A stretch of 42,969 nucleotides of DNA from Rhodoferax sp. GTDB lineage: Bacteria > Pseudomonadota > Gammaproteobacteria > Burkholderiales > Burkholderiaceae_C. Made by a program: the position numbers and the translations under genes. The notes beneath the pieces were generated by a model, which had not been told where the DNA came from, did no database searches, and saw nothing but the letters and a program-made list of their open reading frames with translations. Location of the stretch: NCBI GenBank assembly GCA_020048895.1, contig JAIFLV010000096.1, forward strand, positions 1-42,969, given 5' to 3'. Below, in pieces: positions 4,494 to 20,990 of the stretch (position 1 is its first letter; every line of letters begins with the position of its first letter).

Positions 4494-5987
4494 ATGTCAA
4501 ATCTTCCTCCCTTTATGGCGCCCTTGCGCTTTACCGATCCGGCATCGGCGTTGGCACAAGTCGCGCACATTTACGACGCCAGCATTGGCCATTTGCGCCA
4601 GTCGATGCAACGCTTTGTTGCTGGCGACAATTCCCTGGGTCATGTGCGTGCCTGTTATCCGCTGGTGCGCATTCTGACCGACACCGTGTCGAGAAACACC
4701 GGCGCAGACATCGTGCGGCTGAGTTTTGGTTTTGTCGCCGGGCCAGGCAAGTTTGAAACCACGTTGACCCGACCTGACCTGTACCGCGATTACTACCTGG
4801 AGCAGTTTCGGCTGTTGCTGCAAAACCATGGCGTGGAACTGGAGGTGGGAACCAGTTCGCAGCCCATTCCGGTGCATTTCTCGTTCGCCGAGAATGACCA
4901 TGTGGAGGGCAATCTAAGCCCGCAGCGCCGCACGCTGATGCGCGACGTGTTCGATCTGCCCGATCTGTCTGCCATGGATGACGGCATCGCCAATGGAACG
5001 TACCAGCCTCGTGCCGGGGAGCCCCAGCCGCTGTCACTGTTTACCGCGCCCAGGGTCGACTATTCTCTCCATCGCTTGCGGCACTACACCGGCACGAACC
5101 CGGAGCATTTTCAGAATTTTGTGCTCTTTACCAACTACCAGTTTTATGTTGATGAGTTCATCGCGCTGGGCCGCGCTGCGATGGCAGACCCGCAAAGTGA
5201 CTACATTGCTTTTGTCGAGCCTGGAAATGTTGTCACGCGACGTGTGGGCTTGCCATCCGAGGCGGACGATTTTCTTGGCAAGGAGCCTCCGAGGCTGCCA
5301 CAGATGCCGGGCTACCACCTCATGCGGGCCGACCGATGTGGCATCAGCATGGTGAACATCGGTGTTGGTCCAGCCAATGCCAAGAACATCACTGATCACA
5401 TCGCCGTGCTGCGACCCCATGCCTGGATCATGCTCGGGCACTGTGCCGGTTTGCGCAACAACCAGCAGCTTGGCGACTATGTGCTGGCCCACGGCTATGT
5501 GCGTGAGGACCATGTGCTCGATGAGGAACTGCCTTTGTGGGTACCCATCCCGGCGTTGGCCGAGATTCAGGTGGCGCTGGAGCAGGCGGTCGCGGATGTC
5601 ACGCAAATCAAGGGCGCCGCCCTCAAGAGCATCATGCGCACCGGCACCGTGGCTTCGACCGACAACCGCAACTGGGAATTGTTGCCCGACAACACGCCGC
5701 AGCGCCGCTTCAGCCAGAGCCGGGCTGTGGCCCTGGACATGGAGAGTGCCACGATCGCGGCCAACGGCTTCCGGTTTCGGGTGCCTTATGGCACCCTGCT
5801 GTGCGTCAGTGACAAGCCCCTGCACGGCGAAATCAAATTGCCCGGCATGGCAAACCATTTTTACCGTGAGCGGGTGGACCAGCACCTGCGCATCGGCATT
5901 CGAGCAGTCGAGTTGCTGCGGGCGCGCGGCGTTGACCAACTGCATAGCCGCAAGCTGCGCAGCTTTGCCGAGGTAGCCTTTCAGTAG
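4494..5987 (+). CDS. amn: AMP nucleosidase
   Basis: Cytoplasmic enzyme that hydrolyses AMP to adenine and ribose 5-phosphate, controlling the AMP pool and feeding purine salvage. The product (497 residues; E. coli Amn has 484) matches Amn end to end. The N-terminal AMP-nucleosidase domain contains LHRLRHYTGT and FVLFTNYQFYVDEF. The C-terminal nucleoside-phosphorylase-like domain contains VNIGVGPANAKNI, MLGHCAGLRNNQ, ALDMESATIAANG and the base-binding stretch CVSDKPLHGEIKLPG. The protein ends in LHSRKLRSF, as in E. coli. An ATG three codons upstream (4485) is possible; neither has a strong ribosome binding site. It converges on the nucleoside hydrolase gene, and the 23-bp gap holds a small hairpin (5991-6006) without a T run. 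Its neighbours point to a nucleotide-salvage locus. Confidence 0.96.
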   Translation: MSNLPPFMAPLRFTDPASALAQVAHIYDASIGHLRQSMQRFVAGDNSLGHVRACYPLVRILTDTVSRNTGADIVRLSFGFVAGPGKFETTLTRPDLYRDYYLEQFRLLLQNHGVELEVGTSSQPIPVHFSFAENDHVEGNLSPQRRTLMRDVFDLPDLSAMDDGIANGTYQPRAGEPQPLSLFTAPRVDYSLHRLRHYTGTNPEHFQNFVLFTNYQFYVDEFIALGRAAMADPQSDYIAFVEPGNVVTRRVGLPSEADDFLGKEPPRLPQMPGYHLMRADRCGISMVNIGVGPANAKNITDHIAVLRPHAWIMLGHCAGLRNNQQLGDYVLAHGYVREDHVLDEELPLWVPIPALAEIQVALEQAVADVTQIKGAALKSIMRTGTVASTDNRNWELLPDNTPQRRFSQSRAVALDMESATIAANGFRFRVPYGTLLCVSDKPLHGEIKLPGMANHFYRERVDQHLRIGIRAVELLRARGVDQLHSRKLRSFAEVAFQ

Positions 5988-6010
5988 CCGTTGGGCTGGT
6001 GCCCAAGGGT

Positions 6011-6997
6011 CTACCGCCCAAGCCAGGCGGTCAGCAAGGTTTCCTCAAAGAGCTGCAGGCAGGCGGGTGCGTTTACGTCCATGCAAACCTGCGTCTGCGG
6101 TTGATTCAGGCTCCACCCGCTTTGTGGGTAGTCGATGAAGGGGCGGCGGTCCAGAATCGTTTGCCCTTGTGCCAGTCCTTCGGTTGCTACTCTTACGCAG
6201 CCGGTTTCCGTACGAAATAGATCAGGCGCAACAAGGTACAGGAAGGCCAGCAAATCGTGGGCGTAACAGCCCGGAGTGGCGTCCAGATGCTTGTGCAATC
6301 CGGAATAAAAAGTCGTATAGAACTTCACGGCATGGTGCAACGTATCGGTCGCGGGATGGCGGTGGTGCAGCGCGATTTTTTCAAACAGGGACAATGCTGT
6401 CACCACGCGGTGGGTGACGTCCAGCCCCACCATGGTCAAGCGCCACCCTGCCTGGAAAACACGATCTGCCGCATGGGGATCACTCCAGATATTGGCTTCT
6501 GCAACCGGCGACACGTTGCCAGGTTCGACAATGGTGCCACCCATCAGGATCACTTCGCGCACCAGCGTGGGAAGCGCAGGTTCGAGCGCTAGTGCCATTG
6601 CCAGATTACCTACGGGGCCCACGGCGACCAGTGTGATTTCTCCGGGATGGGCACATGCCATGTCCACAATAAACTGCGCTGACGATCGCGGGTCCATCGC
6701 GCCCTTGGTCAGCGCGCGGGACGGCAAGTTGCCCAACCCGTCTGCTCCGTGAATGAAGTCCGGTGGGGCAACCCCAGGGTTAACCAGCGGTTTGCCAATG
6801 CCCTTGGTGACCGGAATGTGTCGGGCGGCCAGCGCTGTCAGGTACTGCGCGTTGATGGCTGCCTGATCCACGGTCACATTGCCAAACGTGGTCGTGATCC
6901 CCACCAGATCAATCTGGGGATGCGCGAGCGCGAAGTACAGGGCGATAGCGTCATCAACACCGGGGTCGGTATCGAAAATAACTTTGTGGATGTGCAC
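6011..6997 (-). CDS. Inosine-uridine preferring nucleoside hydrolase
   Basis: Cleaves the N-glycosidic bond of ribonucleosides to give base and ribose. The 328-residue product has the calcium-binding N-terminal motif DTDPGVDDA (residues 9-17), the central stretch VAVGPVGNLAMAL, the ligand motif GNVSPVAEANIWSDPHAA and the late catalytic histidine in YAHDLLAF. Substrate preference (IunH, RihA, RihB or RihC type) cannot be read from these motifs. The start is a GTG, 12 bp after the ribokinase stop, with no separate ribosome binding site, so translation is probably coupled to ribokinase. No downstream ATG would keep the metal-binding motif. Together with rbsK it forms a nucleoside-to-ribose-5-phosphate unit transcribed divergently from the nucleoside transporter. 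Confidence 0.93.
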   Translation of the reverse strand: MHIHKVIFDTDPGVDDAIALYFALAHPQIDLVGITTTFGNVTVDQAAINAQYLTALAARHIPVTKGIGKPLVNPGVAPPDFIHGADGLGNLPSRALTKGAMDPRSSAQFIVDMACAHPGEITLVAVGPVGNLAMALALEPALPTLVREVILMGGTIVEPGNVSPVAEANIWSDPHAADRVFQAGWRLTMVGLDVTHRVVTALSLFEKIALHHRHPATDTLHHAVKFYTTFYSGLHKHLDATPGCYAHDLLAFLYLVAPDLFRTETGCVRVATEGLAQGQTILDRRPFIDYPQSGWSLNQPQTQVCMDVNAPACLQLFEETLLTAWLGR

Positions 6998-7009
6998 GAG
7001 GCGTAGTGT

Positions 7010-7942
7010 TCAGTGAATGCCGCAGTAGCTGCGCAGCATTTGTATTGAATTTGCCGAGTGCTCAGCTGCATGGGCGAGAAATTTACCCACATCGGACGCT
7101 TGGGGAATGCTCGCCTGTGCGCCCTGTTTTTCACAAGCCATGGCGCCGGCAGCACTGGCCGAACGCAGGGCTCGACGCAGAGTGTCACCTCGGCCAAGTG
7201 CAGCCACAAGCACGCCGCAAAACGTATCGCCTGCCGCGGTAGTGTCCATGACCTGCACAGGAAAGGCGGGTTGAACGAACACTTCATCAGGAGTCCGCAC
7301 GCACGCGCCGCGCGCACCAAGTGTCACGACAACCGTGGGAACCGTGACGTGCCGCAGGCAGTCGGCTACGGTACCCGGATGTCCCGCGACAACCGCCAGT
7401 TCTCCTTCATTGACCACGAGGATGTCTACGTTGTCGATCAGTTCCGGGGGCAGTGCCTGGGCGGGTGCCGCGTTCAATACCACGGTCACACCCTGCTGGC
7501 GTGCGGCCCGTGCATATGCGGTAACCGTCGCCATCGGTATTTCGAGCTGCAGCAGCAGGTAGCTAAAACCTGCCAATGCGGGCAGGTGGTCTGGCAATAG
7601 CTGCGAGTTTGCGCCCGGAGCGACCGTGATGGCGTTTTCGCCACTGTGGGAGACACAGATAAATGCGCAGCCGGTGGGTTCAGAGTCGCTCCTGACCACA
7701 TGCACTACCACTCCCGCGTCGCGCAAAGAGGCTTCTATGGTCGGCGCGAAGTTGTCGACTCCCATCGCAGTCAGGAAATGCGTAGTGGCACCGCCCGCCC
7801 GCGCAGACGCCACTGCCTGGTTGGCCCCCTTGCCTCCGGGGAATGTGCGAAACCCCTGGCCCAGTACGGTTTCTCCCGGGCAGGGAATCCGCTCTGCCCG
7901 GACGACAAAGTCCAGGTTAGAGCTGCCTGCTACGAGTATCAT
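7010..7942 (-). CDS. rbsK: Ribokinase
   Basis: PfkB-family sugar kinase that phosphorylates ribose at O5, using ATP, in the cytoplasm. The 310-residue product shows the substrate-binding motif GGKGANQAV (about 36-44) and the anion hole and catalytic base DTTAAGDTF near residue 245, the same variant as E. coli RbsK. The ATG at 7942 is chosen over a longer frame from 7972 because AAGGAAG lies 5-7 bases upstream and the protein then starts directly with the first beta strand (MILVAGSSN). It is first in a two-gene operon with the nucleoside hydrolase, whose ribose product it would trap. Other PfkB sugar kinases are possible, but context and motif favour ribokinase. Confidence 0.92.
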   Translation of the reverse strand: MILVAGSSNLDFVVRAERIPCPGETVLGQGFRTFPGGKGANQAVASARAGGATTHFLTAMGVDNFAPTIEASLRDAGVVVHVVRSDSEPTGCAFICVSHSGENAITVAPGANSQLLPDHLPALAGFSYLLLQLEIPMATVTAYARAARQQGVTVVLNAAPAQALPPELIDNVDILVVNEGELAVVAGHPGTVADCLRHVTVPTVVVTLGARGACVRTPDEVFVQPAFPVQVMDTTAAGDTFCGVLVAALGRGDTLRRALRSASAAGAMACEKQGAQASIPQASDVGKFLAHAAEHSANSIQMLRSYCGIH

Positions 7943-7973
7943 CACTTCTTCCTTTGGCGGGGTTTCGTCCAAC

Positions 7974-7986
7974 TTCCATTATGGAA
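7974..7986. promoter_or_regulatory. Palindrome in the rbsK / nucleoside-transporter divergent promoter region
   Basis: The 73-bp gap between the divergent rbsK and binding-protein genes contains TTCCATTATGGAA, a perfect palindrome with six-base arms around one central base. Its position suits an operator that switches both directions, but no regulator gene lies nearby and no convincing promoter boxes can be placed. This is inference from symmetry and position only. Confidence 0.3.
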
Positions 7987-8015
7987 TTGATTCAACACAG
8001 AACAGGAACACTGAC

Positions 8016-8996
8016 ATGAATTTTCGTAAGCGTGCAAGCGTGGTTCTTTTTGCGGTTTCGTGTATGGCAGCCTTTGGGGTTGCAGCCGAGCCGGCGATCG
8101 TTTATGACCTGGGCGGGAAATTTGACAAGTCATTTAATGAGGCTGCCTATCGCGGTATGGAGCAGTGGAAGAAGGAAACCGGCAAGCAATATCTGGAGTT
8201 CGAAGTCTCCAACGAGTCGCAGCGGGAGCAGGCCATTCGGCGCATGGCCGAGCGCGGTGCGAGCCCCATCATTGCCATGAGCTTTAGCCAGGCGTCTGCC
8301 ATTGAAAAGGTTGCCAAGGAGTTTCCCAAGCTGCAATTTGCCATTGTGGACGACGTGGTGAAGCAGCCCAATGTGCAATCGGTGATCTTCAAGGAACACG
8401 AAGGCAGCTTTCTGGTCGGCGTCATGGCGGCCATTGCCAGCAAGACCGGCAAGAGTGGCTTTGTGGGCGGCATGGACATTCCACTGATACGCAAGTTTCA
8501 ATGTGGCTACGAGCAGGGCGTCAAATACATCAACCCCAAGGCGGAAGTGGTTGCCAATATGACGGGCACCACCGGCGCCGCATGGAACGACCCCACGCGC
8601 GGCGGCGAGTTGGCCAAAGCGCAGTTCTCCAAAGGGGTTGATGTCATTTTCGCTGCTGCCGGTGGCACCGGTGCTGGCGTGTATCAGGCTGCCAAGGACG
8701 GCGGCAAGCTCGCGATCGGCGTCGATAGCAACCAGAACCACATGCAACCCGGCACCATGCTCACCTCCATGATCAAGCGGGTGGATGTCGCGGTGTACAA
8801 CATCAGCAAGGCGCACAAGCCCGGGTTGACGTTGCTCGGGCTGAAGGAAGGCGGCGTCGATTACGCCATGGATGAGCACAACGCCAAACTGGTCTCGGCC
8901 GATATGAAAAAGCGTGTGGACGCGGCCAAGGCCGATATCGTGAGCGGCAAGATCAAAGTCGTGGATTACACCGTCGACAGCTCCTGCAAGTACTGA
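8016..8996 (+). CDS. BMP-family nucleoside ABC transporter substrate-binding protein
   Basis: Periplasmic binding protein of the basic membrane protein (BmpA/Med, PnrA-like) family, which binds purine nucleosides and delivers them to the ABC permeases encoded downstream. The 326-residue product has a signal peptide of about 25 residues ending in VAA before EPAIVYD. There is no lipobox cysteine, so it should be soluble. Family features include YDLGGKFDKSFNEAAYRG near the start of the mature part, FKEHEGSFLVG, VGGMDIPLI, and the hinge stretch VIFAAAGGTGAGVYQAAKD. The ATG at 8016 is preceded by AGGAA about 8 bases upstream; longer in-frame starts would put the signal peptide in mid-protein. It is the first gene of the transporter operon. 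Confidence 0.93.
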   Translation: MNFRKRASVVLFAVSCMAAFGVAAEPAIVYDLGGKFDKSFNEAAYRGMEQWKKETGKQYLEFEVSNESQREQAIRRMAERGASPIIAMSFSQASAIEKVAKEFPKLQFAIVDDVVKQPNVQSVIFKEHEGSFLVGVMAAIASKTGKSGFVGGMDIPLIRKFQCGYEQGVKYINPKAEVVANMTGTTGAAWNDPTRGGELAKAQFSKGVDVIFAAAGGTGAGVYQAAKDGGKLAIGVDSNQNHMQPGTMLTSMIKRVDVAVYNISKAHKPGLTLLGLKEGGVDYAMDEHNAKLVSADMKKRVDAAKADIVSGKIKVVDYTVDSSCKY

Positions 8997-9034
8997 TTCT
9001 CGTTGGCGCAGGCTGTTTTGGCGCTCACCGTACG

Positions 9035-10594
9035 ATGAGCTCAGGCATGGGAGAAATGCGTTCGCAGCCCGCCATTCAACCGGCGGTGCGGATGATCGGC
9101 ATCCACAAGCACTTCGGGTCCGTCGCTGCAAACGCAGACGTGCACCTGAGCCTGAACACTGGCACGGTGCACGGCATCGTTGGCGAGAATGGTGCTGGCA
9201 AAAGCACCCTGATGTCGGTTCTCTACGGGTTTTATACGGCCGACAGTGGGTCTATCGAAGTTTTTGGCCAACCCGTGAACATTCGCAATGCCGACGATGC
9301 CATCGCTGCGGGAATCGGCATGGTGCACCAGCACTTCATGCTGGTGGACACGCTCACCGCGCTGGAAAACGTCATGCTCGGCGCAGAGCCGCACTGGCTA
9401 CTCGTGCGCGCCGCCAAAGAGGTGCGTGGCAAGCTGCAGGAATTGATGCAATCCACCGGCTTGGTGGTGGACCTCGACCGCTTGGTGGCAGACCTTCCGG
9501 TGGGTGACCGGCAACGGCTGGAAATTCTCAAGGCCTTGTACCGCGGCGCCAAAATTCTGATTCTTGACGAGCCCACGGCGGTACTTACTCCACAAGAGAC
9601 AGAGCAGCTCTTTGAGGTGCTTCAACGACTGAGTAGTCAGGGCACCACGATTGTCTTGATTACCCATAAGCTCAAAGAGGTCCTGCGCTTGTGCGATGTG
9701 GTCACCGTCATGCGCGCCGGTCGTGTGGTGAAGGAGGTCGCGATAGAAGATGCGTCGCTGGAGTCGTTGGCCGAGGCCATGGTCGGGAGGAAAGTCCACA
9801 CCGGTCGCGCTCAGCAAAGTGAAGTGCCGTTGGGGAAGGTGCTGCTCGTGGCGCGGGATGTCTCAGTAGGGAATGCCGCCGAAGTGCCCCAACTGTCAGG
9901 GCTGAATCTGGAACTTCGGGCCGGCGAAATCGTCGGCGTGGCCGGCGTTTCGGGCAATGGGCAGAGCGAGTTGCTCGATGTCCTTTCGGGCTTGATGCGC
10001 CCAACGTCCGGCACACTGTGCGTCGGAGGACAGGATTTCAGTGTCTCCAACTGGATCACGCCGCGTCAGGCACGCCAGTTGGGCTTGGCCCACGTGCCAG
10101 AAGACCGGCACGCCCGCGCCATGGTGATGGACTTTGCCGCGTGGGAATCGGCCGTGCTGGGGTACGAGGAGTCGCCACGTTATGCGGTGGGTGGCTGGAT
10201 GTTGCATTCGCAAATGCGCAGTGCGACCGCGGCCATGATGGAGCAATTCGATGTGCGCCCCCGTGACACGGAGCTTGCGAGCAGCAAATTTTCGGGTGGC
10301 AACCAACAAAAACTGGTGCTGGCAAGGGAGTTGGGGCAGTCACCCACGGTTCTTCTCGTAGGCCAGCCCACGCGTGGAGTGGACATCGGAGCCATTGAGT
10401 TCATCTATACCCAATTGCGCGCCATGCGTGACGCCGGATGTGCCGTGCTGCTCGTATCGAGCGAGTTGGACGAGATCCTGGCGCTGTCTGATCGCGTGAT
10501 CGTGATGCACCATGGCCACATTGCTGGTGAGTTGGCCATCGGGGACTGCACCGAGGCCCGACTGGGCATGCTGATGACCGGAGCCGTCCAATGA
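9035..10594 (+). CDS. Nucleoside ABC transporter ATP-binding protein (two ATPase domains)
   Basis: Energises nucleoside import at the inner membrane. The 519-residue product carries two ABC domains in tandem, as in NupA/YufO and RbsA-type proteins. Domain 1 has Walker A GENGAGKST (50-58), signature LPVGDRQR and Walker B ILILDEPTA. Domain 2 has a degenerate Walker A (GVSGNGQSELL), signature FSGGNQQK and Walker B VLLVGQPTRGVD. The degenerate second site is usual in this subfamily. The start is uncertain: ATGs at 9035, 9047 and 9056 are all in frame and none has a well-spaced ribosome binding site. It follows the binding protein by 38 bp, and its stop overlaps the start of the first permease by four bases, so those two are translationally coupled. 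Confidence 0.93.
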   Translation: MSSGMGEMRSQPAIQPAVRMIGIHKHFGSVAANADVHLSLNTGTVHGIVGENGAGKSTLMSVLYGFYTADSGSIEVFGQPVNIRNADDAIAAGIGMVHQHFMLVDTLTALENVMLGAEPHWLLVRAAKEVRGKLQELMQSTGLVVDLDRLVADLPVGDRQRLEILKALYRGAKILILDEPTAVLTPQETEQLFEVLQRLSSQGTTIVLITHKLKEVLRLCDVVTVMRAGRVVKEVAIEDASLESLAEAMVGRKVHTGRAQQSEVPLGKVLLVARDVSVGNAAEVPQLSGLNLELRAGEIVGVAGVSGNGQSELLDVLSGLMRPTSGTLCVGGQDFSVSNWITPRQARQLGLAHVPEDRHARAMVMDFAAWESAVLGYEESPRYAVGGWMLHSQMRSATAAMMEQFDVRPRDTELASSKFSGGNQQKLVLARELGQSPTVLLVGQPTRGVDIGAIEFIYTQLRAMRDAGCAVLLVSSELDEILALSDRVIVMHHGHIAGELAIGDCTEARLGMLMTGAVQ

Positions 10595-11697
10595 GTGCCG
10601 CACAACCGTTGCCGCGATGGGCCGATGTGGTGCTGCTGCCCGTGGTGTGCCTGGGTGTGGCGCTGTTGGCTGCTGCGGCCGTGGTTGCGCTGGTTGGGCA
10701 AAACCCGGGTGAGGTCATCCGGGTACTCATCCAGGGAGCGTTTGGTACGCAACGGGGGTTGAGCTACACCCTGTACTACGCCACCACCTTTATCTTCACT
10801 GGCCTGGCCGTATCCGTCGCTTTTCATGGCGGGTTGTTCAACATCGGGGGTGAGGGGCAGGCGATTTTGGGCGGGTTGGGGGCCGGCCTGGCAGCCTTGT
10901 GGTGGTCTGCAGTGCTGCCCGCCTGGCTGATGCTGCCGGTCATGCTGGTGTTCAGCATATTGTTTGGTTTGGTTTGGGCGGCCGTGCCGGGTTATCTGCA
11001 GGCTTATCGCGGCAGCCACGTGGTCATTACGACCATCATGTTCAATTTCATTGCCAGCAGTTTGCTGGTGTATCTGCTGGTGAACCACTTGCGCCCCACC
11101 GGCGCCATGTCGGTGGAAAGTGTGGCCTTTGCGGACTCCGCCCGGTTGCCCAGCATGCGCGATGCTTTGGCCTGGATCGGCGTCGAGTGGCCGAGTTCAC
11201 CCCTCAACATCAGTCTGTTGTTGGCCTTGCTGGCCAGTCTGGGCGTGTATCTTTTTCTGTGGCGAACCCGTGCCGGCTACCAATTGCGCGCGGTGGGGTC
11301 CAGTCCCGGTGCTGCGGCGTATGCAGGTATCAGTGAGCGCAAACAGATCATGGTTGCCATGTGCGTCTCCGGCGCACTTGCCGGTATGGTGGGCATGAAC
11401 GAAATCGCAGGCGTCAACGGCAAGCTGCTGCTGGAGTTCGTGAGTGGCGCTGGTTTTACCGGCATTGCGGTGGCACTGATGGGACGCAATCACCCGGTTG
11501 GCATCATTTTCGCCAGCATTTTGTTTGGCGCGCTGTTTCAGGGGGGCGCGGAAGTGGCGTTTGAAGTACGTGGTTTCAGCCGCGACATGGTTGTCATGGT
11601 GCAGGGCTTCATCGTTCTCTTCTCAGGCGCCATGGCGTACGTCATTGCGCCCTGGGTGGCGAGGGTGGTAGGTCTTGCACGGCTGGGGGGAAAGTGA
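10591..11697 (+). CDS. Nucleoside ABC transporter permease 1
   Basis: Inner-membrane permease of the BPD_transp_2 family (NupB/YufP type). The 368-residue product has an N-terminal membrane helix (LLPVVCLGVALLAAAAVVALVG cut short here), the conserved stretch FNIGGEGQ near residue 87 and many hydrophobic segments. The late conserved motif GAGFTGIAVALMG is typical of nucleoside permeases. Its start overlaps the ATPase stop (ATGA). The partner permease gene should follow directly, but it begins 2.5 kb further on (14210), beyond an exported hydrolase gene on the other strand and an IS200 element. A dispersed repeat with hairpins immediately downstream may now terminate the transcript. Confidence 0.93.
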   Translation: MSAAQPLPRWADVVLLPVVCLGVALLAAAAVVALVGQNPGEVIRVLIQGAFGTQRGLSYTLYYATTFIFTGLAVSVAFHGGLFNIGGEGQAILGGLGAGLAALWWSAVLPAWLMLPVMLVFSILFGLVWAAVPGYLQAYRGSHVVITTIMFNFIASSLLVYLLVNHLRPTGAMSVESVAFADSARLPSMRDALAWIGVEWPSSPLNISLLLALLASLGVYLFLWRTRAGYQLRAVGSSPGAAAYAGISERKQIMVAMCVSGALAGMVGMNEIAGVNGKLLLEFVSGAGFTGIAVALMGRNHPVGIIFASILFGALFQGGAEVAFEVRGFSRDMVVMVQGFIVLFSGAMAYVIAPWVARVVGLARLGGK

Positions 11698-11736
11698 CTG
11701 TGGCCCAACTACCTGCCAGTCAATGACGGACCAATT

Positions 11737-11786
11737 GCTCTTCTTTTAATAGCTGCTCACGCTTGCTGATCGGGCGCTACAGCCCG
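11737..11786 (-). repeat. Dispersed repeat copy with hairpins between convergent genes
   Basis: Read on the minus strand it gives GGGCGCT-type arms and TGAGCAGCTATT, matching the dispersed repeat. It also holds a stem CGGGC/GCCCG at 11771-11786 followed by ATTT, so it could act as a terminator for the permease gene and the convergent EEP hydrolase gene. It is inverted relative to the copy at 13167-13208 on the other side of the EEP gene. Confidence 0.6.
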
Positions 11787-11815
11787 ATTTGTTGCATAGC
11801 CACCAAGAGGTCAAA

Positions 11816-13096
11816 CTAAAACTTCAATCGCGCCAGTCGTGGGCAGTGGTCACTGGTCTCTATGCTCTGGTCGGGTTTGCTGACAACTGGCAATTTGCGG
11901 GATTCGATCGCGCCAGCGTTCGCTTGCTTCAACGCACCACTGATGACGATATGGTCCAGCCCGGTAAACCCGGTGCAAGCGGCATCGACCGTCGTGAGTG
12001 GCACCTGGTGCAACTCGGGAGTGCCGTCCGCAATTTCCTGCCACAGGTAGCGCGTCTTGACGCCCCCGGTTGCGTCCACCCCATTGGGACCCGCCGGATC
12101 GGACCCATCGCTACGCACCTGATCCTTGGGTGGCGACAGAGCGGCCTCATCGTCAATGCGTCGGTTGAAGTCGCCCATCAACACAAACCGCGGACTGCGT
12201 TGCGCAACATTTTCAATCCAGGTTTCAAGAAGGGGCACCTGGCGGTTCAACACACGGCAAGCCTCCACATCATCGGTGAGCAAACGCCCGGGGTAACGGG
12301 CATCGTTGTTGGTCACACTGGCACATGCAGCCTTGAGGTGCACATTCATGAAAGTGACGGCTTGACCGTTCACCTGCAGTTCCAATGCCAGACCTGGCCG
12401 CACGCTGCGAAACGCGTTGGGGTCGTTGCCAGGTTCCTTCAGCGCCAGGTCAGAACGTGTAGTGCAAATGCCCGGGCTGGAGGTCAGCGTTTTGTCCCAG
12501 GCGAAAACCAGTGACTGAAAGGCGTCGTAGCGTGCATCGCAGGTGTCAAAGCGGTCCGCGTAGCGTCCAAGAATCAGACGAACCACTGCCGCAGAGCGCA
12601 CCTCCTGAAATGCCATGACGCGCACCCCCTCGTTGGCGACCAGACCCTCCAGCGTGGCCTGCAAGCCTGCCAACTTCTCGGAATAGGCCGCCGCAGAGCG
12701 CACCAGTTGCGGGTCTGGACGGGGCTCGCCCGGTTTCACCGGGCGACCGTTGCGGTAGGCATTGCAAGGCGCGATCAGCATCGACGCCAGTTTTCCACCT
12801 GCTGCTGCAAAGGTGGCCTGCTGGCATTGCTCGGCGCGCTGTTGCTCTTGCGGGGTTGGCGCCGTGGCACCACGCACAATCCAGGCCCGGGTGTCACACC
12901 AGTTGACGTCTTTTGCGTTGCAAACCTTGAGGTGCTGCTCAAAGTCGTCCGGCGTCCCGGCCCAGGCCAGATTGAATGCCGCTACCGTGGCTACCACCGG
13001 CCCTTGCTGAGCACCCACGGCGCTTGCAAACGCAATAGCAAGCGAAGCTGCGAAAGAGCATCGGAACACGCTGAAAGGCCTGAAGTTTGAAAGCAT
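11816..13096 (-). CDS. Exported endonuclease/exonuclease/phosphatase (EEP) family protein
   Basis: Putative secreted metal-dependent phosphodiesterase or phosphatase. The product (about 426 residues) has a signal peptide ending in VGA before QQGP. The EEP core follows: FNLAW near 41, the metal-binding glutamate in MAFQEVR near 166, NVHLKAAC near 253, GDFNRR near 309, GLDHIV near 381 and the terminal SDHCP. At least eight cysteines in the mature part suggest disulfides and a periplasmic or extracellular site. The substrate cannot be read from sequence; nuclease, sphingomyelinase-like and phosphatase members all share these motifs. The ATG at 13096 is chosen over a TTG at 13126 because it starts directly at the signal peptide. 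It lies against the direction of the nucleoside-transporter operon that it interrupts, flanked by inverted repeat copies. Confidence 0.85.
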   Translation of the reverse strand: MLSNFRPFSVFRCSFAASLAIAFASAVGAQQGPVVATVAAFNLAWAGTPDDFEQHLKVCNAKDVNWCDTRAWIVRGATAPTPQEQQRAEQCQQATFAAAGGKLASMLIAPCNAYRNGRPVKPGEPRPDPQLVRSAAAYSEKLAGLQATLEGLVANEGVRVMAFQEVRSAAVVRLILGRYADRFDTCDARYDAFQSLVFAWDKTLTSSPGICTTRSDLALKEPGNDPNAFRSVRPGLALELQVNGQAVTFMNVHLKAACASVTNNDARYPGRLLTDDVEACRVLNRQVPLLETWIENVAQRSPRFVLMGDFNRRIDDEAALSPPKDQVRSDGSDPAGPNGVDATGGVKTRYLWQEIADGTPELHQVPLTTVDAACTGFTGLDHIVISGALKQANAGAIESRKLPVVSKPDQSIETSDHCPRLARLKF

Positions 13097-13166
13097 GAAG
13101 TACCCATGATTGAAAATGTGCGCCAATTATCAGGTACGGTTGGTCTTATGCATAAAAACACCTATC

Positions 13167-13208
13167 AGCGCCCGTCGGACGTACGTAAGCAGCTATCAAA
13201 AATAGAGC
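13167..13208 (+). repeat. Dispersed repeat copy
   Basis: Contains GCGCCCGTCGGAC, then CGTAAGCAGCTAT and an imperfect stem (GCTATCAAAAATAGAGC). It lies just upstream of the EEP gene start and next to the left end of the IS200 element. Confidence 0.6.
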
Positions 13209-13214
13209 ACTTAA

Positions 13215-13830
13215 CTCGTTATAAGGTAAGCCCCCGGCTATGCCGGGGGACTCACACAGGTTTGACCGTTTGCTGCGGTCGTAGATGCTTCGATTCCGAC
13301 CAAGGAACAGGAGCATCAGATGAAAGAGTATCAGAGCCTGGCGCATGCACGCTGGGATTGCAAGTATCACATAGTGTTTATTCCGAAAGGGCGAAAGAAG
13401 GCAATATTTGGAGCGGTGCGCAAGCACCTTGGGGGCATGCTGCATGAGTTGGCGCAGCAAAAGGAATGCAAGATAGTGGAGGGGCATTTGATGCCCGATC
13501 ACGTTCACATGTGCATCAGCATTCCACCCAAACATTCGGTGAGCTACGTTGTGGGATTCATCAAGGGCAAGAGTGCCATTGGCATTGCCCGGAAGTTCTC
13601 GGGCAAAACCAGGAACTTTACGGGCGAGAATTTCTGGGCACGCGGCTATTACGTTTCAACAGTTGGGTTGGACGAAGAGATGGTGCGGGCATATATCAGG
13701 CATCAGGAGAGCGAGGATGAACGATATGACCAACTCAAGCTTGGCATGTGATGTCGCCTTTAGGCGACGCCAGCTTCTTGCCCCTTCGAGGGGCTAACAA
13801 ATCAAGCTACCGGCTTTGCCGGTAGTACCT
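13215..13830 (+). mobile_element. IS200-type insertion sequence
   Basis: A single short transposase gene is bracketed by hairpins instead of terminal inverted repeats, as in IS200/IS605 elements. The left hairpin is CCCCCGGC-TAT-GCCGGGGG (13231-13249). On the right, GTCGCC-TTTA-GGCGAC (13753-13768) and GCCCC-TTCGA-GGGGC (13780-13794) are followed by CTACCGGC-TTT-GCCGGTAG (13807-13825). The left and right end hairpins share the inner CCGGC/GCCGG stem. Exact ends are not resolved by eye. It sits between the two nucleoside permease genes. Confidence 0.75.
13320..13751 (+). CDS. tnpA: IS200 family transposase TnpA
   Basis: HUH-type Y1 transposase that moves the element as single-stranded DNA. 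The 143-residue product has the usual IS200 length. It opens with WDCKYHIVFIPKGRKK, carries the metal-binding HUH motif HVH (61-63) inside MPDHVHMCIS, and has a plausible catalytic tyrosine at 125 in AYIRHQE. AGGAG lies 6-7 bases before the ATG, supporting the start. No accessory TnpB gene is present, as expected for IS200. The frame is intact, so the element may still be mobile. REP-associated transposases are related, but the length and flanking hairpins favour IS200. Confidence 0.92.
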   Translation: MKEYQSLAHARWDCKYHIVFIPKGRKKAIFGAVRKHLGGMLHELAQQKECKIVEGHLMPDHVHMCISIPPKHSVSYVVGFIKGKSAIGIARKFSGKTRNFTGENFWARGYYVSTVGLDEEMVRAYIRHQESEDERYDQLKLGM

Positions 13831-13878
13831 GACTTTGGCATCTACCCCAATACCATTCCTCCGGCAAAGGCGGTGCCT

Positions 13879-13951
13879 GGGGTCAGAGCCCGATTTCGTT
13901 GTAGACCGCGCACTCCGTCAATGTCCTCGTCCTGAATCGGGATCTGACCCC
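13879..13951. repeat. REP-like inverted repeat (GGGGTCAGA type)
   Basis: The 17-base arm GGGGTCAGAGCCCGATT (13879-13895) matches the reverse complement of 13935-13951 at 16 of 17 positions. Arms of this GGGGTCAGA...CCC form occur as REP-like palindromes in many proteobacterial genomes, often near REP-associated transposases. Here they lie about 50 bp past the IS200 element. Confidence 0.55.
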
Positions 13952-14057
13952 ATGCCCCTGACCCCATGCCGCTGAGTGCTCGCCAGCAGATAGACGCCAA
14001 CGCAACTCCGGTAAGGGCAAAGCCGAAGCGAAGTAACCAAATGGGCTGTTGAAGGCT

Positions 14058-14082
14058 CCCCTCGCCCGACGGGGGCGAGGGG
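14058..14082. repeat. GC-rich hairpin
   Basis: CCCCTCGCCC at 14058-14067 pairs perfectly with GGGCGAGGGG at 14073-14082 across a five-base loop. No T run follows. It resembles the C/G-rich REP-type palindromes of Burkholderiales spacers and lies 130 bp upstream of permease 2. Confidence 0.6.
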
Positions 14083-14209
14083 TTGGGGGAGTGGGGAGTT
14101 TAGAATCATCCGACACCCACCCCAATCGCCACCATCGTCCCAATGTATCCCCCCAGTACAGTGTCTTCACAGAGCATGCTCGAGCCTGCTGGCGCTCACA
14201 CCAAGACCC

Positions 14210-15178
14210 ATGGATGAATCCCTGATTGCAGCGTTACTGGCATCGACCGTGCGGGTCTCGACACCGCTGATTTTTTGCGCCCTGGCTGGCCTGCTGTCCG
14301 AGCGTTCCGGCGTGGTGGACATTGGGCTGGAAGGAAAGATGCTGTTTGCGGCCTTCGCTGCTGGTGCAGCCGGAGCCAGTTACGGGTCAACCTCTCTCGC
14401 ACTGGTGGCTGCCATGCTGACCGGGATGGCACTGTCCTGGATGCATGGTGTGGCATGTGTCAGCCATCGTGGCGACCAGGTGGTATCCGGGGTTGCCATC
14501 AACATCATTGCGGCGGGAATGACGGTAGTCCTGGGCATCGCCTGGTACGGGCAGGGTGGTCAAACGCCGGCAGTAGCTACCGATGTGCGCATCCAGGCCA
14601 TTTTCCCGGGCTTGGCACAGCAGCTAGATGGCCTGCCTTGGGTGGGCTCTATTTTGGGGGAGGGGCTGCTCGGCCACAACACGTTGGTGTACCTGGCCTT
14701 TTTGCTGGTTCCACTGGTCTGGTGGTTGCTGTTTCGTACCCGCTTCGGGCTGCGTCTGCGTGCCGTTGGCGAGAACCCGCAGATGGTGGACGCGGCGGGC
14801 GTTTCTGTTTCCGGGCTGCGCTATGCCGCGCTCACACTGAATGGTGCCTTGTGCGGGCTGGCTGGGAGCTATATGGTCCTTGCGCAGGGTGCCAATTTTT
14901 CGCCGAACATGTCTGCCGGGCGTGGCTTTATGGCATTGGCGGCCTTGATATTTGGACGCTGGCAGCCCCGTGGCGCACTGTTCGCCTGTCTGATGTTTGG
15001 CTTTCTGGATGCGGTGGCCATCCGCTTGCAAGGCGTTCCGCTTCCCATGGTGGGTGAAGTTCCCGTGCAGATTATTCAGGCGCTGCCATATGTGCTGACG
15101 GTGGTGTTGCTGGCCGGATTTATCGGTAAAGCCGTTGCCCCGCAGGCGTTGGGTCGCCCTTACGTAAAAGAAAGATAG
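14210..15178 (+). CDS. Nucleoside ABC transporter permease 2
   Basis: Second inner-membrane permease of the BPD_transp_2 family (NupC/YufQ type), expected to pair with the permease ending at 11697. The 322-residue product shows the family opening TPLIFCALAGLLSERSGVVD, the stretch IGLEGKML, several hydrophobic segments, the conserved FRTRFGLRLRAVGENP loop and MSAGRGFMALAALIFG. The start has no strong ribosome binding site. In related clusters the two permease genes are adjacent; here 2.5 kb of hydrolase gene, IS200 and repeats lies between them. The stop is 8 bp before the cpdB start, so those two are one transcript. Confidence 0.92.
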   Translation: MDESLIAALLASTVRVSTPLIFCALAGLLSERSGVVDIGLEGKMLFAAFAAGAAGASYGSTSLALVAAMLTGMALSWMHGVACVSHRGDQVVSGVAINIIAAGMTVVLGIAWYGQGGQTPAVATDVRIQAIFPGLAQQLDGLPWVGSILGEGLLGHNTLVYLAFLLVPLVWWLLFRTRFGLRLRAVGENPQMVDAAGVSVSGLRYAALTLNGALCGLAGSYMVLAQGANFSPNMSAGRGFMALAALIFGRWQPRGALFACLMFGFLDAVAIRLQGVPLPMVGEVPVQIIQALPYVLTVVLLAGFIGKAVAPQALGRPYVKER

Positions 15179-15186
15179 GTGCTTGA

Positions 15187-17186
15187 ATGAAAAACCGTGT
15201 TGTCCGACCAGTGCGGTCTTTGGTTGGCGTCACCTGGTTCCTTTTTGCGCTGGCTACATGCCCGACAGCAGGGGCGGCAGAAGTGCGCTTGCGCATACTG
15301 GAAACCACCGACTTGCACATGCATTACTGGAAACCACCGACTTGCACATGCATCTGATGGCCTACGACTACTACCAGGACAAGTCCACGGACCAATATGG
15401 TTTGTCCAGAACGCTGTCGCTCATCAAGGCGGCGCGCGCGGAGTCTGCCAACAGCCTGCTATTCGACAACGGCGATCTGTTGCAGGGCAATCCGCTGGGG
15501 GACTACGTTGCCAAAATTGACCCGCTCAAGGACGGTGACACCCATCCCGCTTTCAAAGTCATGAACCAGATGGGCTATGACGCAGCCAACATCGGGAACC
15601 ATGAATTTAACTATGGGTTGCCGTTTTTGAAGCGCTCATTGGCAGGAGCAAACTTTCCCTATGTCAATGCCAACATTTACGTAGACAACAAAGACAAAGA
15701 TTCGGATCGTGCACAGCACGCGTTTACACCCTACGTCTTGCTGGACCGCAAGCTGGTCGATGCCCAGGGGCAAAGCCATTCCATCAAGGTGGGTGTTATC
15801 GGTTTTGCGCCGCCACAGGTCATGTTGTGGGACAAAAGCAATCTGGAAGGCAAGGTGATCGCGCGCGACGTGGTGGAGACTGCCAAAAAGTACGTGCCCA
15901 TCATGCGCGCGCAGGGCGCGCAGTTGGTCATCGCCATTCCGCATGCCGGGTTTGAGAAAGGCCCGGTGGCCCAATTCTCTGAAAATGCGGTGGCTCCGCT
16001 GACCGAAGTGGCAGGGGTTGATGCAGTGCTGTTCGGCCACGCGCACGCGGAATTTCCCAGCCCCGCGTTTGCTGGCCATCCCAAGGTGGATTTGGAGCGC
16101 GGCACGATCAACGGAGTTCCCTCCGTGATGCCAGGGCGATGGGGAGACCACCTGGGCGTGATTGACCTCACGCTGGACGCTACCGATGGTGCCTGGAAAG
16201 TCGTCAGCAGCAAGGCGTCGATCCGACCGATTTTTGACCGTGTGGCCCGCAAATCACTGGCGGGTGCAGACCCGATGGTGGAGCGCCTCATCGGTGATGT
16301 TCATGCACGCACCTTGGAGTATGTGCGTAGCAAGGTCGCCTTTGGCAGTGCACCCATTTACAGTTACTTTGCCCAGGTCAGTGACGATCCTTCGGTGCAG
16401 ATCGTTGCCAATGCCCAGTTGGCCTACGTCAGACGTGCCATGCAGGGTACGGAATATGAAAAGTACCCTGTTTTGTCCGCAGCCGCACCCTTCAAGACCG
16501 GTGGACGGCAGGGTTGGGACTACTACACCGACATACCTGCCGGCCCGATCGCGATCAAGAACGTCGCAGACCTGTATGTGTATCCAAACACCCTCAAGGC
16601 CATGTTGCTGACGGGGGCTGAAGTTCAGGAGTGGCTGGAAATGTCGGCCGGCCAGTTCAACCAGATAGATCCCAAGGGGGCGCCGCAGCAGGCGTTGCTG
16701 AGCGAGAACTTTCGTTCCTACAATTTTGACACCCTGGATGGGGTGACCTACGAGTTTGATTTGTCACAACCAGCCAAGTACTCTGAGGTTGGCGCGCTCA
16801 AAGCGCCAGATTCCCAGCGCGTCAAGAATCTGCGTTACCAAGGCAAACCAATAGGCAAGGACGACCGATTTATCGTGGCGACCAACAACTACCGGGCCTT
16901 TGGGGGCGGCAACTTTCCGGGCCTTAACGCGTCCAAAGTGGTCATGGAGGCGCCCGATGAGAACCGCCAGGTGCTGGTGGAGTATTTGCGGATGATGGAC
17001 ACCTTGTCCGCCAACAAGCAAGTCAACCCCACTGCCGATGGCAATTGGCGAATCAGTCCGGTGCCGGGTGTGCGCATGACATTTCTATCTGCCAGCGCCG
17101 CCATCCGCTATCTTCCGGCCCACACGCAGATTCGCCTTGTAAAGGACAACGGTGATGGTTCCGCTCTGTACCAGATAGGGGAATAG
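15187..17186 (+). pseudogene. cpdB: cpdB (2',3'-cyclic-nucleotide 2'-phosphodiesterase / 3'-nucleotidase), frameshifted by a 29-bp duplication
   Basis: Periplasmic enzyme turning 2',3'-cyclic nucleotides and 3'-nucleotides into nucleosides. Metal-site motifs of the family are present (ETTDLHMH, DNGDLLQGNPLGDY, NIGNHEFNYGL, FGHAHAEFP), as is the 5'-nucleotidase C-terminal domain (SAAAPFKTGGR, LYVYPNTL, SAGQFNQIDPKG, VATNNYRAFGG). The ATG at 15187 encodes a signal peptide (MKNRVVRP to AGAAEVRL) and has AGG eight bases upstream. An exact 29-bp tandem repeat (15296-15324 and 15325-15353) then shifts the frame, and translation ends at the TGA at 15355. Removing one copy restores a 656-residue protein close to E. 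coli CpdB (647). Internal starts after the repeat would lack the signal peptide. It may be a true mutation, a reversible slippage site or an assembly error. Confidence 0.9.
15296..15353 (+). repeat. Exact 29-bp tandem duplication inside cpdB
   Basis: Two adjacent identical 29-base units, each beginning TACTGGAAACC and ending TGCACATGCAT. The unit encodes the first metal-binding motif (ETTDLHMH). Because 29 is not a multiple of three, the second copy puts the signal peptide and the mature enzyme in different frames. Confidence 0.98.
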
Positions 17187-17303
17187 CGTCAGCAGGTTCG
17201 GGAAAAATCCGATAACACGACGCAACGCAATTCTCCTGATCGACCCAGCACGACAAATATGGATCGGTGAGCGCTAGTGCGGTGCTCGCCGCTACCGCAA
17301 AAG

Positions 17304-17371: not shown

Positions 17372-20300
17372 TTAAAACTCGTATTTCAGCGTTACTTGAG
17401 CCGACCACTGTGACTCACCCTTCGTCTGACGGGTCACAAGGTTTTCCACGGCGACTGTGTTGTAAACATATTTGCCGTCTTTCATACCTGCATAGTTCAC
17501 GAAGCTTCGGTTCGAAGGAAAGCCAACTTCGTCAATGCGGCCCCATTCCTTGTTCAGCAGGTTGCCAAAATTCAGAATGTCGAAAGAAACCAGACCTTTG
17601 TGCTTCGGCATAAAGCCCGGGAGCTCTTGGCTGATGCGAACGTCAAAGGTGTTGATGAAGGGTGCAGTCGTATCGTTGCGCCCTACCACGCCACCGCGCG
17701 CACTGCTCAGTGTAGAGTTGCTGTTCACAATGGCCCAGAACTGATCTTCATTCGCCTTGCGTGCTTCTGCGGTTGCACCGTAAAACAAAACTTCACCAGA
17801 GCCCGGAGCGGAAGGAATGTACATCAGGTCATTTCCGCTGACGCCGTCTCCGTTCATGTCGTTGTTATAGGTCCAACTGTAGGGTTTTCCGCTGCGGCCT
17901 TCGTACATGACCCCGAATGTAGTCTTGTAGTTGCCTACAAATGCCCGACTCCAGCTCAAACTGCCATTGACACGATCCCGAGTCTGGTAGTTCGAGGTTT
18001 CTGCCACATCTTCGTTGGGATTGAAGGTGTTGCGGCCGTTCCAGTTGGAAATTGCGCGACTCGATGTCAACGGATTGACTTCCTTGGCATCTGTTCGCGT
18101 GTATGCAACACTCCAACCCAAACCGGCTTTGGCCGGGCTTTGCAGCGATAGAGTCACGGCATTTCCGCCTCCCTGCGATGTGTTGCTCGCCAGCACTACA
18201 TCTCCGAAAGCACGATTGCGATTGGCCCTGTTATTGCCACAGTTGGACTTAATGCCAAAAGCGCCAGTCCAGCAGCTATCACTGCGGCCACCTGCATCGT
18301 AGTACAGCTGCCGTCCGTCAGGTCCAGTGGCGGTAGGCGCACCGAGGTTTAGGTGGGTGTAATGCAACGCGTTGTTGTTGCGCGTATTGATCCACTCCAC
18401 GCCGGCAATCAGACCGAAAGGAAGCGAGGTCTCATAGGCAAGATTGGTTTTCCAGACCGAAGGCTGTTTCAGGTCGGGAGAAATAATGTCAACATTGGCG
18501 GCGGGAATCGTTCCAGTGAGGATAGGTTGGTTCGCAGGGTCTGGTACAAAAACCAACGAAGGTGGGCACAGATTGCTCGACTGGCCGTTGTTGCAACTGT
18601 AAGTTACTGTCGCAACGCCAGGATTGGAGTACGGGTTTGACAACCACACAGTCATGGCTGCGCCCTGAAATAGTCCCAGACCGCCTCGGATTTGAGACCT
18701 GCCATCCTTGCTCGTGTCCAACTGGTAATTGAAGCCAAGCCGTGGTTGCACCAGGTTTTGTCCATCAATCGTAACGGTGTTGTCGTAGCCAAACGCTGTC
18801 AGAGCCTTGGGATTGGACTTGGGGCGATCACCTGTCATGGCGCGGTCAATACGTACACCGGCCGTGACATTGAGTTTGTCATTGACCGCAATGGTGTCCT
18901 GCGCGAAGATTCCCAGGTTGTTGAGCGTCCAGTTCGCAATGCCGTCATTCAAAGTTGCACCAGGTTGCGCTACCTGAACCAGATAGGTAGTCGGCTTGCC
19001 GGCCAGGAACAGCGCGACCGGATCTGCGCCTTGGAAGGTGTACAGACCATTGGTGTCTGGCAAAAATGCGTTGTAAATATCGTTCTTGCTGTAGTCGAGG
19101 CCGAACTTGATCTCGTGATCGCCCTTGAAATACGTGCCAGCGAAATAGGTATCCAAAGTCTTGGCCTGCAGCACGTTGAAATGCCTGAATCGCTCGGTTC
19201 CGAAGTTCAGAGTGCGGTTTCCGCTGGGCGCGCCAGCAGGCGCAGGGCCGTTGAAAATCAGGCTGACCTGAGGAAGTGTCGAATTATTTTCAAATGTTTT
19301 GGGATTGTTGCGGCTTGAAATCTTGAACTCGGTTGAAAAGTCTGGTGTCCAGTCTGCGAACCATTGCCCCACCGCGCTTTCCAGGACCTTCTTCTCAGCA
19401 GTCCAATGGGAGTTGAAAGACAGCGCATTGGTGCCAAAGCCATAAAAAATGGGCTCTACCTGCTCGATTTTTGACACCCGGACATTGGCACGGTGCTGGT
19501 CATTGATGTTCCAGTCAAATTTGAACGTGTAGTCCTTGGCGGTCAGCTCAGTCCCTTCTGGAATCGCAAGGCTGCCGATATCTATGCCGTATTTTGACTT
19601 TGCGGCTGCGGCTGCGGCATCAATTTGAGCCTGCGTAATGCCAACGTTGGTTTGCGAACTGCCCAGAGGTCCAAAGGCCGGTGAGTTGCGGGAACTGCGA
19701 AACTCTTCAGCGCTTATGAAGTAGAACAGCTTGTCCTCAATGATAGGCCCACCCAGCGTAAAGCCTTTGGTGCTTTCTTTGAAATCGGGCGTCGCACTGT
19801 AAGTGTCGCTTGTGCGGCTATAGCGATCACCTGTCAGTCGTTGATCACGTGTTACGTAGTAGACGCTTCCCTTGACGGTATTTGTCCCTGACTTTGTGAC
19901 CGCATTGATATTTGCACCCGTATAGCCCTTTTGGGTCACGTCAAAATTGGCAATATTGACTTGAACCGACTGAATTGCGTCAATCGAGATCGGCTGTTTG
20001 GCTGTTGGCAGGTTGTTTGCCTCAAGACCAAAACTGTCAGTGATTGAAACGCCGTCAATGGTGACGGTGTTGAATCGTGAGTTTTGGCCCAAAGCTGAAA
20101 TCTCGCCGCGTTCTTTGTCGGTCTGAGCCAGGCGTGGATCAAGACGCGCGTAGTCTTGAAGATTGCGTTGAACCGAGGCAAACGCGTCCAGTTCTTGGCG
20201 ACCGAGTTGGGTACTTGCGCCCTTATTGCCGTTATCAAAAACCCGGGCCGATGCTGTGCCCGTCACTGTGACCGTAGCAAGCGACACGCCGCCCAATTTG

Positions 20301-20644
20301 AAGTCGAAGCTGGAAGTTTCCGCCAACTGCAGGTATATGCCTTCGCGAGAGTCCTTATCCGATCCCTTGGTCACCACGATTGTGTACGGGCCGCCAACAC
20401 GCAAACCGCGTGCTGCATAGCGACCATCAGCGTCAGTAACTAATTTGTTGCTGGAGCCCGATTCGGTGTGAACGATACTCACAACCGCTCCAGCGACAGG
20501 TTTGCCGTCCGCACCGGTAATCTGACCGCCCAAGGCTGCAGTGGTATTTTGAGCAAATGCGGGGGCTGCCATGACGATGGCGACGGCCGCACTAAGGGCG
20601 GTTCTCGAGAAATCCGAGAATAATGAATCGTGAATATTGCGCAT
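17372..20644 (-). CDS. TonB-dependent receptor, Oar-like, with carboxypeptidase-regulatory-like domain
   Basis: Outer-membrane gated channel that takes up a large substrate using TonB energy. The 1090-residue product has a signal peptide ending in AFAQN. A carboxypeptidase-regulatory-like beta-sandwich follows (about 35-115; GGQITGADGKPVAGAVVSI ... DADGRYAARGL), then a plug domain (FNTVTIDGVSITDSFG) and a long barrel ending in the aromatic outer-membrane signature LKYEF. The architecture matches the Oar family rather than classical siderophore receptors; the substrate is unknown. The ATG at 20644 is chosen over an upstream frame to 20761 because AGGAG lies about 8 bases before it and the signal peptide starts there. 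An intrinsic-terminator-like hairpin (20663-20694) lies in the leader. It converges with cpdB, so a link to nucleotide uptake is only speculation. Confidence 0.92.
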   Translation of the reverse strand: MRNIHDSLFSDFSRTALSAAVAIVMAAPAFAQNTTAALGGQITGADGKPVAGAVVSIVHTESGSSNKLVTDADGRYAARGLRVGGPYTIVVTKGSDKDSREGIYLQLAETSSFDFKLGGVSLATVTVTGTASARVFDNGNKGASTQLGRQELDAFASVQRNLQDYARLDPRLAQTDKERGEISALGQNSRFNTVTIDGVSITDSFGLEANNLPTAKQPISIDAIQSVQVNIANFDVTQKGYTGANINAVTKSGTNTVKGSVYYVTRDQRLTGDRYSRTSDTYSATPDFKESTKGFTLGGPIIEDKLFYFISAEEFRSSRNSPAFGPLGSSQTNVGITQAQIDAAAAAAKSKYGIDIGSLAIPEGTELTAKDYTFKFDWNINDQHRANVRVSKIEQVEPIFYGFGTNALSFNSHWTAEKKVLESAVGQWFADWTPDFSTEFKISSRNNPKTFENNSTLPQVSLIFNGPAPAGAPSGNRTLNFGTERFRHFNVLQAKTLDTYFAGTYFKGDHEIKFGLDYSKNDIYNAFLPDTNGLYTFQGADPVALFLAGKPTTYLVQVAQPGATLNDGIANWTLNNLGIFAQDTIAVNDKLNVTAGVRIDRAMTGDRPKSNPKALTAFGYDNTVTIDGQNLVQPRLGFNYQLDTSKDGRSQIRGGLGLFQGAAMTVWLSNPYSNPGVATVTYSCNNGQSSNLCPPSLVFVPDPANQPILTGTIPAANVDIISPDLKQPSVWKTNLAYETSLPFGLIAGVEWINTRNNNALHYTHLNLGAPTATGPDGRQLYYDAGGRSDSCWTGAFGIKSNCGNNRANRNRAFGDVVLASNTSQGGGNAVTLSLQSPAKAGLGWSVAYTRTDAKEVNPLTSSRAISNWNGRNTFNPNEDVAETSNYQTRDRVNGSLSWSRAFVGNYKTTFGVMYEGRSGKPYSWTYNNDMNGDGVSGNDLMYIPSAPGSGEVLFYGATAEARKANEDQFWAIVNSNSTLSSARGGVVGRNDTTAPFINTFDVRISQELPGFMPKHKGLVSFDILNFGNLLNKEWGRIDEVGFPSNRSFVNYAGMKDGKYVYNTVAVENLVTRQTKGESQWSAQVTLKYEF

Positions 20645-20662
20645 CCTGCTGCTCCTGAAAAC

Positions 20663-20694
20663 AAAAAAACCCCTCGGCAAAGTTACCGACGGGG
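20663..20694 (-). terminator. Terminator-like hairpin in the TonB-receptor leader (possible attenuator)
   Basis: On the minus strand CCCC-G-TCGG pairs with CCGA-GGGG across an eight-base loop and is followed directly by seven U residues, 18 bases before the receptor ATG and just ahead of its ribosome binding site. No upstream gene needs a terminator here: the tRNA-Met has its own at 20991-21024. A smaller competing stem (ACGG/CCGT) overlaps the 5' arm. Attenuation or riboregulation is inference. Confidence 0.6.
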
Positions 20695-20990
20695 ACCGTG
20701 AACACATGCAATATATCGCCAAACCCGTTACAGAACCATGACAACTGTTGTTGCGGTGCAACCGTCATGAAAATCTTGGTGCGACTCTCTAACATCTGTC
20801 CGTCGCGCCTAAACGCCGCGTTGCGTTGGGGACTGTGCCTGCCTGCCTATAAAGTGTCGGTAAGTGCGATTCCGACCCCTGAGCTGATGGTGTTTGTTTG
20901 GCTGGAATCAAACTATTTCAGCGGATACCATCAAAGATCGCATCAAAATAGTTTTGTGGAATGATGGGGTTCCATGCTGGTTGAGACAAG
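20695..20990. other. Spacer between the tRNA-Met terminator and the TonB-receptor leader
   Basis: No gene seen. This must hold the receptor promoter on the minus strand. A TATATT box lies near 20711-20716, but the nearest TTGTCA is about 23 bases away, too far for a standard sigma-70 pair, so I do not call a promoter. Confidence 0.5.

Follow-up and report, generated by a model that had tools for sequence, protein, structure and literature searches.

Organisation of the cpdB locus

The window analysed here is a stretch of 42,969 bases of Rhodoferax sp. DNA, namely bases 1-42969 of contig C11 (66,094 bases), and belongs to a draft genome of 4,595,121 bases in 188 contigs (G000, 91.4% complete). 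It contains cpdB, whose signal-peptide codons are followed directly on the 3' side by two adjacent copies of a 29-bp unit. Coordinates of the features at this locus, together with those of comparable doublings elsewhere in the assembly, are collected in Table 1. The region from 4485 to 17186 may represent a purine or nucleoside salvage cluster ending in cpdB. Among the genus matches listed for positions 15000-17300, a permease lies next to cpdB in this genome and in its closest relative (G025) only; in the other genus matches listed, the permease match is located away from the cpdB match.

Table 1. Features of the cpdB locus and exact two-copy doublings in the surveyed part of the genome. Positions refer to the window unless a stretch (L) is named; extra homology is in bases.
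Feature	Position	Strand	Extra homology	Remarks
AMP nucleosidase	4485-5987			In possible salvage cluster
ABC transporter parts	7626-11697, 14210-15178			Related to putative B6/BMP type
ABC transporter permease (BPD_transp_2)	14210..15178	+		Directly upstream of cpdB; profile matches
5' part of cpdB	15187..15357	+		ATG, signal-peptide codons, mature start, stop from doubled unit
Copy 1 of 29-bp unit	15296..15324	+		One copy in closest relative G025: gap of exactly 29 at 15296
Copy 2 of 29-bp unit	15325..15353	+		Exact match to copy 1; G025 gap of 29
cpdB body (2',3'-cyclic-nucleotide 2'-phosphodiesterase/3'-nucleotidase)	15327..17186	+		Open, conserved
TonB-receptor-like barrel	17372-20761	-		Downstream of cpdB
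hemG, HemG-type protoporphyrinogen oxidase	L120:726-1291			Contig C7 of G000
26-bp doubling	L195:6567-6618		0	5' side of tRNA-Glu
29-bp doubling	Window, cpdB		0	Frameshift
33-bp doubling	L259		1	Met-zincin gene; in frame, junction makes stop
34-bp doubling	L180		2	
35-bp doubling	L241:11532-11602		1	3' part of tRNA-Leu
41-bp doubling	L120		0	hemG, frameshift
41-bp doubling	L132		1	
47-bp doubling	L180		0	Sugar transferase, frameshift
84-bp doubling	L237:7532-7699		0	GNAT-family gene, in frame, 28 residues twice

The two copies of the unit (TACTGGAAACCACCGACTTGCACATGCAT) are identical, with 0 mismatches, as the initial annotation had described for positions 15296-15353. Expected matches of a 29-bp doubling by chance amounted to 0.00 (100 dinucleotide shuffles), and the cpdB doubling is the sole exact two-copy tandem duplication with a period of 10-500 within the window; its doubled form occurs once in the genome. 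The unit contains the codons for D-L-H, the first metal-binding D-x-H of the metallophosphoesterase CpdB, and the repeat covers the first metal-binding motif as had been noted. No microhomology is present at the junction, where copy 1 is preceded by A and the unit ends in T, and copy 2 is followed by C and the unit begins with T.

Two sequence peculiarities of the unit were considered and set aside. Microhomology-mediated slippage, suggested by eye from GCAT at both ends of the single-copy form, predicts a 28-bp duplication; the real unit of 29 bp, with T at the junction, would require an extra event. At one Ile codon the unit reads ATA, against ATT in the closest relative. This is unremarkable, as across 13 genes of the window ATA accounts for 26 of the 395 Ile codons.

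Translation from the ATG at 15187 comprises 56 residues and terminates at the stop codon 15355-15357, in agreement with the early stop that had been annotated, so that the signal peptide is out of frame with the CpdB body as assembled. In relatives, the cpdB leader and body share one frame. With a single copy the arithmetic, (17186-15187+1-29)/3-1, gives the 656 residues previously proposed. The body scores 860.5 bits against NF006938 (cut-off 486; positions 28-644 of 648), a match of the mature protein over its full length above the curated cut-off, and 810.4 bits against TIGR01390, which is below the cut-off of 883 for a query without its N-terminus; domain matches comprise PF00149 and PF02872. 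Compared with the CpdB family as defined by NF006938 and TIGR01390, the body is matched full length except for the N-terminus, and the doubled 29 bases alone constitute the difference.

A second frame, extending from TTG 15183 to 17186, is open through both copies and would encode 667 aa. Initiation at this TTG, or at a start inside the frame, would yield a cytoplasmic CpdB that keeps the first metal-binding motif. The N-terminal part of this product, however, runs out of frame across the conserved signal-peptide stretch and by eye is unlike a signal peptide, in relatives it is the cpdB frame that begins with a leader, and the second 29-bp copy would have to be real. Use of this frame is vanishingly unlikely.

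cpdB in relatives and its substitution pattern

No exact tandem duplication with a period of 12-300 was found in cpdB of relatives (0/97 locus records). The relatives are mostly betaproteobacterial MAGs and isolates, including several Rhodoferax, and the closest record, at 93% identity, comes from an uncultured beta proteobacterium MAG. The 97 records correspond to about 85 distinct contigs or N-termini, with 11 contigs apparently present twice and one record (L017) without the N-terminus, and the sample, in which 80 of 167 confirmed loci were kept, is part of what exists.

These data bear on one of the three readings offered by the initial annotation, namely phase variation, a slippage-prone switch turning periplasmic nucleotide use on and off, in which the second copy is gained and lost rapidly. 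Since 29 is not divisible by 3, gain or loss of a copy would toggle the frame, and there is a precedent in pneumococcal capsule genes, for which Waite et al. are said to have described, in 2001 and 2003, phase variation by tandem duplications. The cpdB doubling resembles the duplications of cap3A, cap8E/wchA and tts in being a short out-of-frame tandem duplication within an ORF. The pneumococcal duplications are reported to revert and to give mixed populations. At cpdB, in contrast, only one state was observed, and doublings like it occur at unrelated genes and tRNAs (see below). The cpdB site furthermore comprises two copies only, with no seed homology, and the comparison with close relatives that had been proposed reveals no variation in the copy number of the repeat (0/97 cpdB records), which leaves the switch unsupported. 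Among the literature titles surveyed, none concerns a CpdB switch and none this very artefact. Taken together, a switch at cpdB is considered extremely unlikely.

The cpdB body displays a dN/dS of 0.062 relative to G025 (561 codons, simple counting). Using three outgroups, 23 synonymous and 17 nonsynonymous changes were assigned to the branch of the present genome and 21 synonymous and 12 nonsynonymous changes to that of G025, with 135 changes left without branch assignment. The substitution counts rule out gene decay and uphold the earlier statement that the rest of cpdB is free of it. An undecayed body is compatible with all three readings (artefact, very recent event, switch).

Exact doublings across the assembly

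A survey of 121 stretches of the genome, covering 1,740,119 of 4,595,121 bases (38%), revealed nine exact two-copy tandem duplications, that of cpdB included, with periods of 26-84 bp and 0-2 bases of extra homology (Table 1); by extrapolation there would be about 24 such doublings per genome. Mean extra homology over the nine is 0.56, against ~0.67 for random breakpoints (our own derivation). The nine exclude exact repeats of period 10-14 (12 rows, apart from L161), the L161 array (14, 23 and 27 bp), the three-copy 18-bp repeat of L224 and two 12-bp arrays in L249; the exact period-24 windows in L166 and L249, also excluded, belong to shorter-period arrays. At periods of 20-60 the surveyed part holds two pairs with an identity of 0.90-0.95 and none between 0.95 and just under 1, and in the last 40 stretches no exact doubling was found at periods of 85-500.

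The doublings strike without regard to function, as expected of an artefact, affecting protein genes and two tRNAs. The 34-bp unit and one 41-bp unit fall close to the C-termini of two proteins, one ligase-like and the other a histidine kinase, and processing of the tRNA-Leu and tRNA-Glu that carry doublings may still be possible. The 84-bp GNAT doubling is probably an artefact of the same kind as that of cpdB, and the tRNA-Leu (35 bp) and tRNA-Glu (26 bp) doublings probably belong to this kind as well. A clustering of the periods at assembler k values, to which 29 and 41 seemed at first to point, was not observed in the full set.

Lengths at the hemG, tRNA-Leu and Met-zincin sites were compared with those of G025. 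The hemG stretch measures 509 bases in G025 and 550 in the present genome, exactly 41 bases shorter in the relative, and the tRNA-Leu stretch 396 and 431, exactly 35 shorter. At the Met-zincin stretch the difference is 27 rather than 33, which indicates further indels there. The sugar transferase site is not covered by any G025 match. Exact length differences of this type would be compatible with artefacts and with real recent events alike.

Control DNA from relatives, about 853 kb, contained no exact repeat with a period of at least 20 and extra homology of at most 2. Exact tandem repeats with a period of at least 20 were present in L042 (three) and L053 (one), where the extra homology amounts to 4-22 bases, and a 16-bp exact tandem repeat was identified in G025 (L208); further repeats of shorter period in the relatives were likewise left out of the count; three control stretches (L206, L207 and L212) consist entirely of N. 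If rates were equal, the probability of finding all nine doublings in the present genome would be P = 0.028, a value that serves as supporting evidence only, for a modest excess, because the criterion for a doubling was set after the data had been seen.

The doubling in hemG

In hemG the 41-bp doubling follows some 26 proper residues, and the shifted frame runs into a stop after 57. This gene is the sole NF008316 match in the genome, where HemJ (PF03653) gave 0 matches (91.4% complete genome) and the HemY-type profile TIGR00562 gave seven, none above the cut-off (best 42.2 vs 97.85 bits); a real hemG break would therefore remove the recognised protoporphyrinogen oxidase. Loss of protoporphyrinogen oxidase would be expected to stop heme synthesis. 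A true break should thus leave the cell without a recognised enzyme for this step and hence without heme, and a population whose aerobic genome looks intact is unlikely to survive it. HemJ could fall in the missing 8.6% of the genome. HemJ was found in 94/103 genomes of the genus; of the eight HemJ-less genomes besides the present one, G025, G092, G008 and G013 match the hemG body, while G076, G053, G045 and G028 gave no hemG match, so that gene absences may reflect incompleteness. In a small group within the genus, HemG appears to substitute for HemJ. Four genomes (G023, G022, G012 and G060) carry both HemJ and hemG.

The survey and the hemG break also bear on the reading in which the cpdB doubling is a real, very recent duplication, a plain loss-of-function mutation that inactivated the gene either in the lineage or in the strain sampled and is reversible in principle by loss of a copy. 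Perfect identity of the copies, the single copy in relatives and the conserved cpdB body are all consistent with such an event, and gene-inactivating short tandem duplications are mentioned for pneumococcal wchA in one report (PMC4022640). The event would nevertheless be one of nine within the surveyed 38% of the genome (some 24 by extrapolation), one of which hits the sole recognised protoporphyrinogen oxidase gene, and the cpdB junction is without microhomology. A genuine recent duplication is accordingly regarded as improbable. A broader version, in which the doublings are real, the lineage produces short homology-independent tandem duplications of ~26-84 bp at an unusually high rate, perhaps ~24 fresh ones per genome, and genes such as cpdB and hemG alternate between active and inactive states within the population, is very improbable; if true, it would represent a remarkable example of gene switching by duplication in an environmental bacterium.

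Contig ends and the origin of the doubling

Traces of the assembly procedure are visible at the contig ends. Among 189 ends, 16 exact overlaps of at least 14 bases were identified, 14 of them measuring 91 bp, which points to k = 91 in a de Bruijn assembly. The ends of contigs C15 (L127) and C95 (L237) have exactly 29 bp in common and were left unjoined; this is a true end overlap shorter than k. A 77-bp overlap between the L120 and L239 contig ends, with sequence of the type GGGGTCAGAGCCC...GGGATCTGACCCC, resembles an interspersed repeat rather than a broken join. The stretches examined contain four N-runs, of 6, 49, 56 and 21 bases, one of which starts at C11:42970, straight after the window. 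N-runs of 6-56 bases indicate that the contigs are scaffolds with estimated gaps; no hidden overlaps were found across the four runs. All nine periods are below 91, which agrees with an artefact and is non-discriminating, because genuine tandem copies of at least 91 bp would likewise be merged in a graph built at k = 91.

These observations suggest the following origin. At a k of about 91, de Bruijn assembly of the short reads would have broken off within cpdB, leaving two contigs that truly overlap by 29 bases, too few for joining in the graph. The scaffolder, guided by read pairs, would then have set the contigs side by side with both ends in full, so that the 29 bases appear twice, copy 1 being the end of one contig and copy 2 the untrimmed start of the next. 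Untrimmed joins of sub-k overlaps would generate exact doublings shorter than k with breakpoints unrelated to the sequence. The features shared with an untrimmed overlap at a scaffold join are the exact two-copy doubling below k, random breakpoints and the occurrence of several cases per assembly, together with sub-k contig-end overlaps and N-filled gaps elsewhere. The difference is that here the joins at the doubled sites, and the program that made them, are inferred from the assembled sequence.

The cpdB doubling is therefore very probably an assembly artefact in an ordinary cpdB. Assembly error, which the initial annotation had listed beside a recent event and a switch, is the best supported of the three in view of the eight further doublings, the broken hemG, and k = 91 with an unjoined 29-bp overlap, while nothing was found in support of the switch. 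On the best reading, the doubling as a biological feature is not real and is of low interest.

If the doubling is an artefact, the general lesson is that exact two-copy doublings shorter than k and without junction homology are suspected scaffold joins, a suspicion that should precede the designation of a gene in a draft genome as a pseudogene or a switch. It can be addressed without reads by surveying the assembly for more doublings, for contig-end overlaps and for breakage of an indispensable gene. In the organism itself, cpdB would most likely carry the 29 bases once only, as an ordinary gene for a periplasmic nucleotide-scavenging enzyme.
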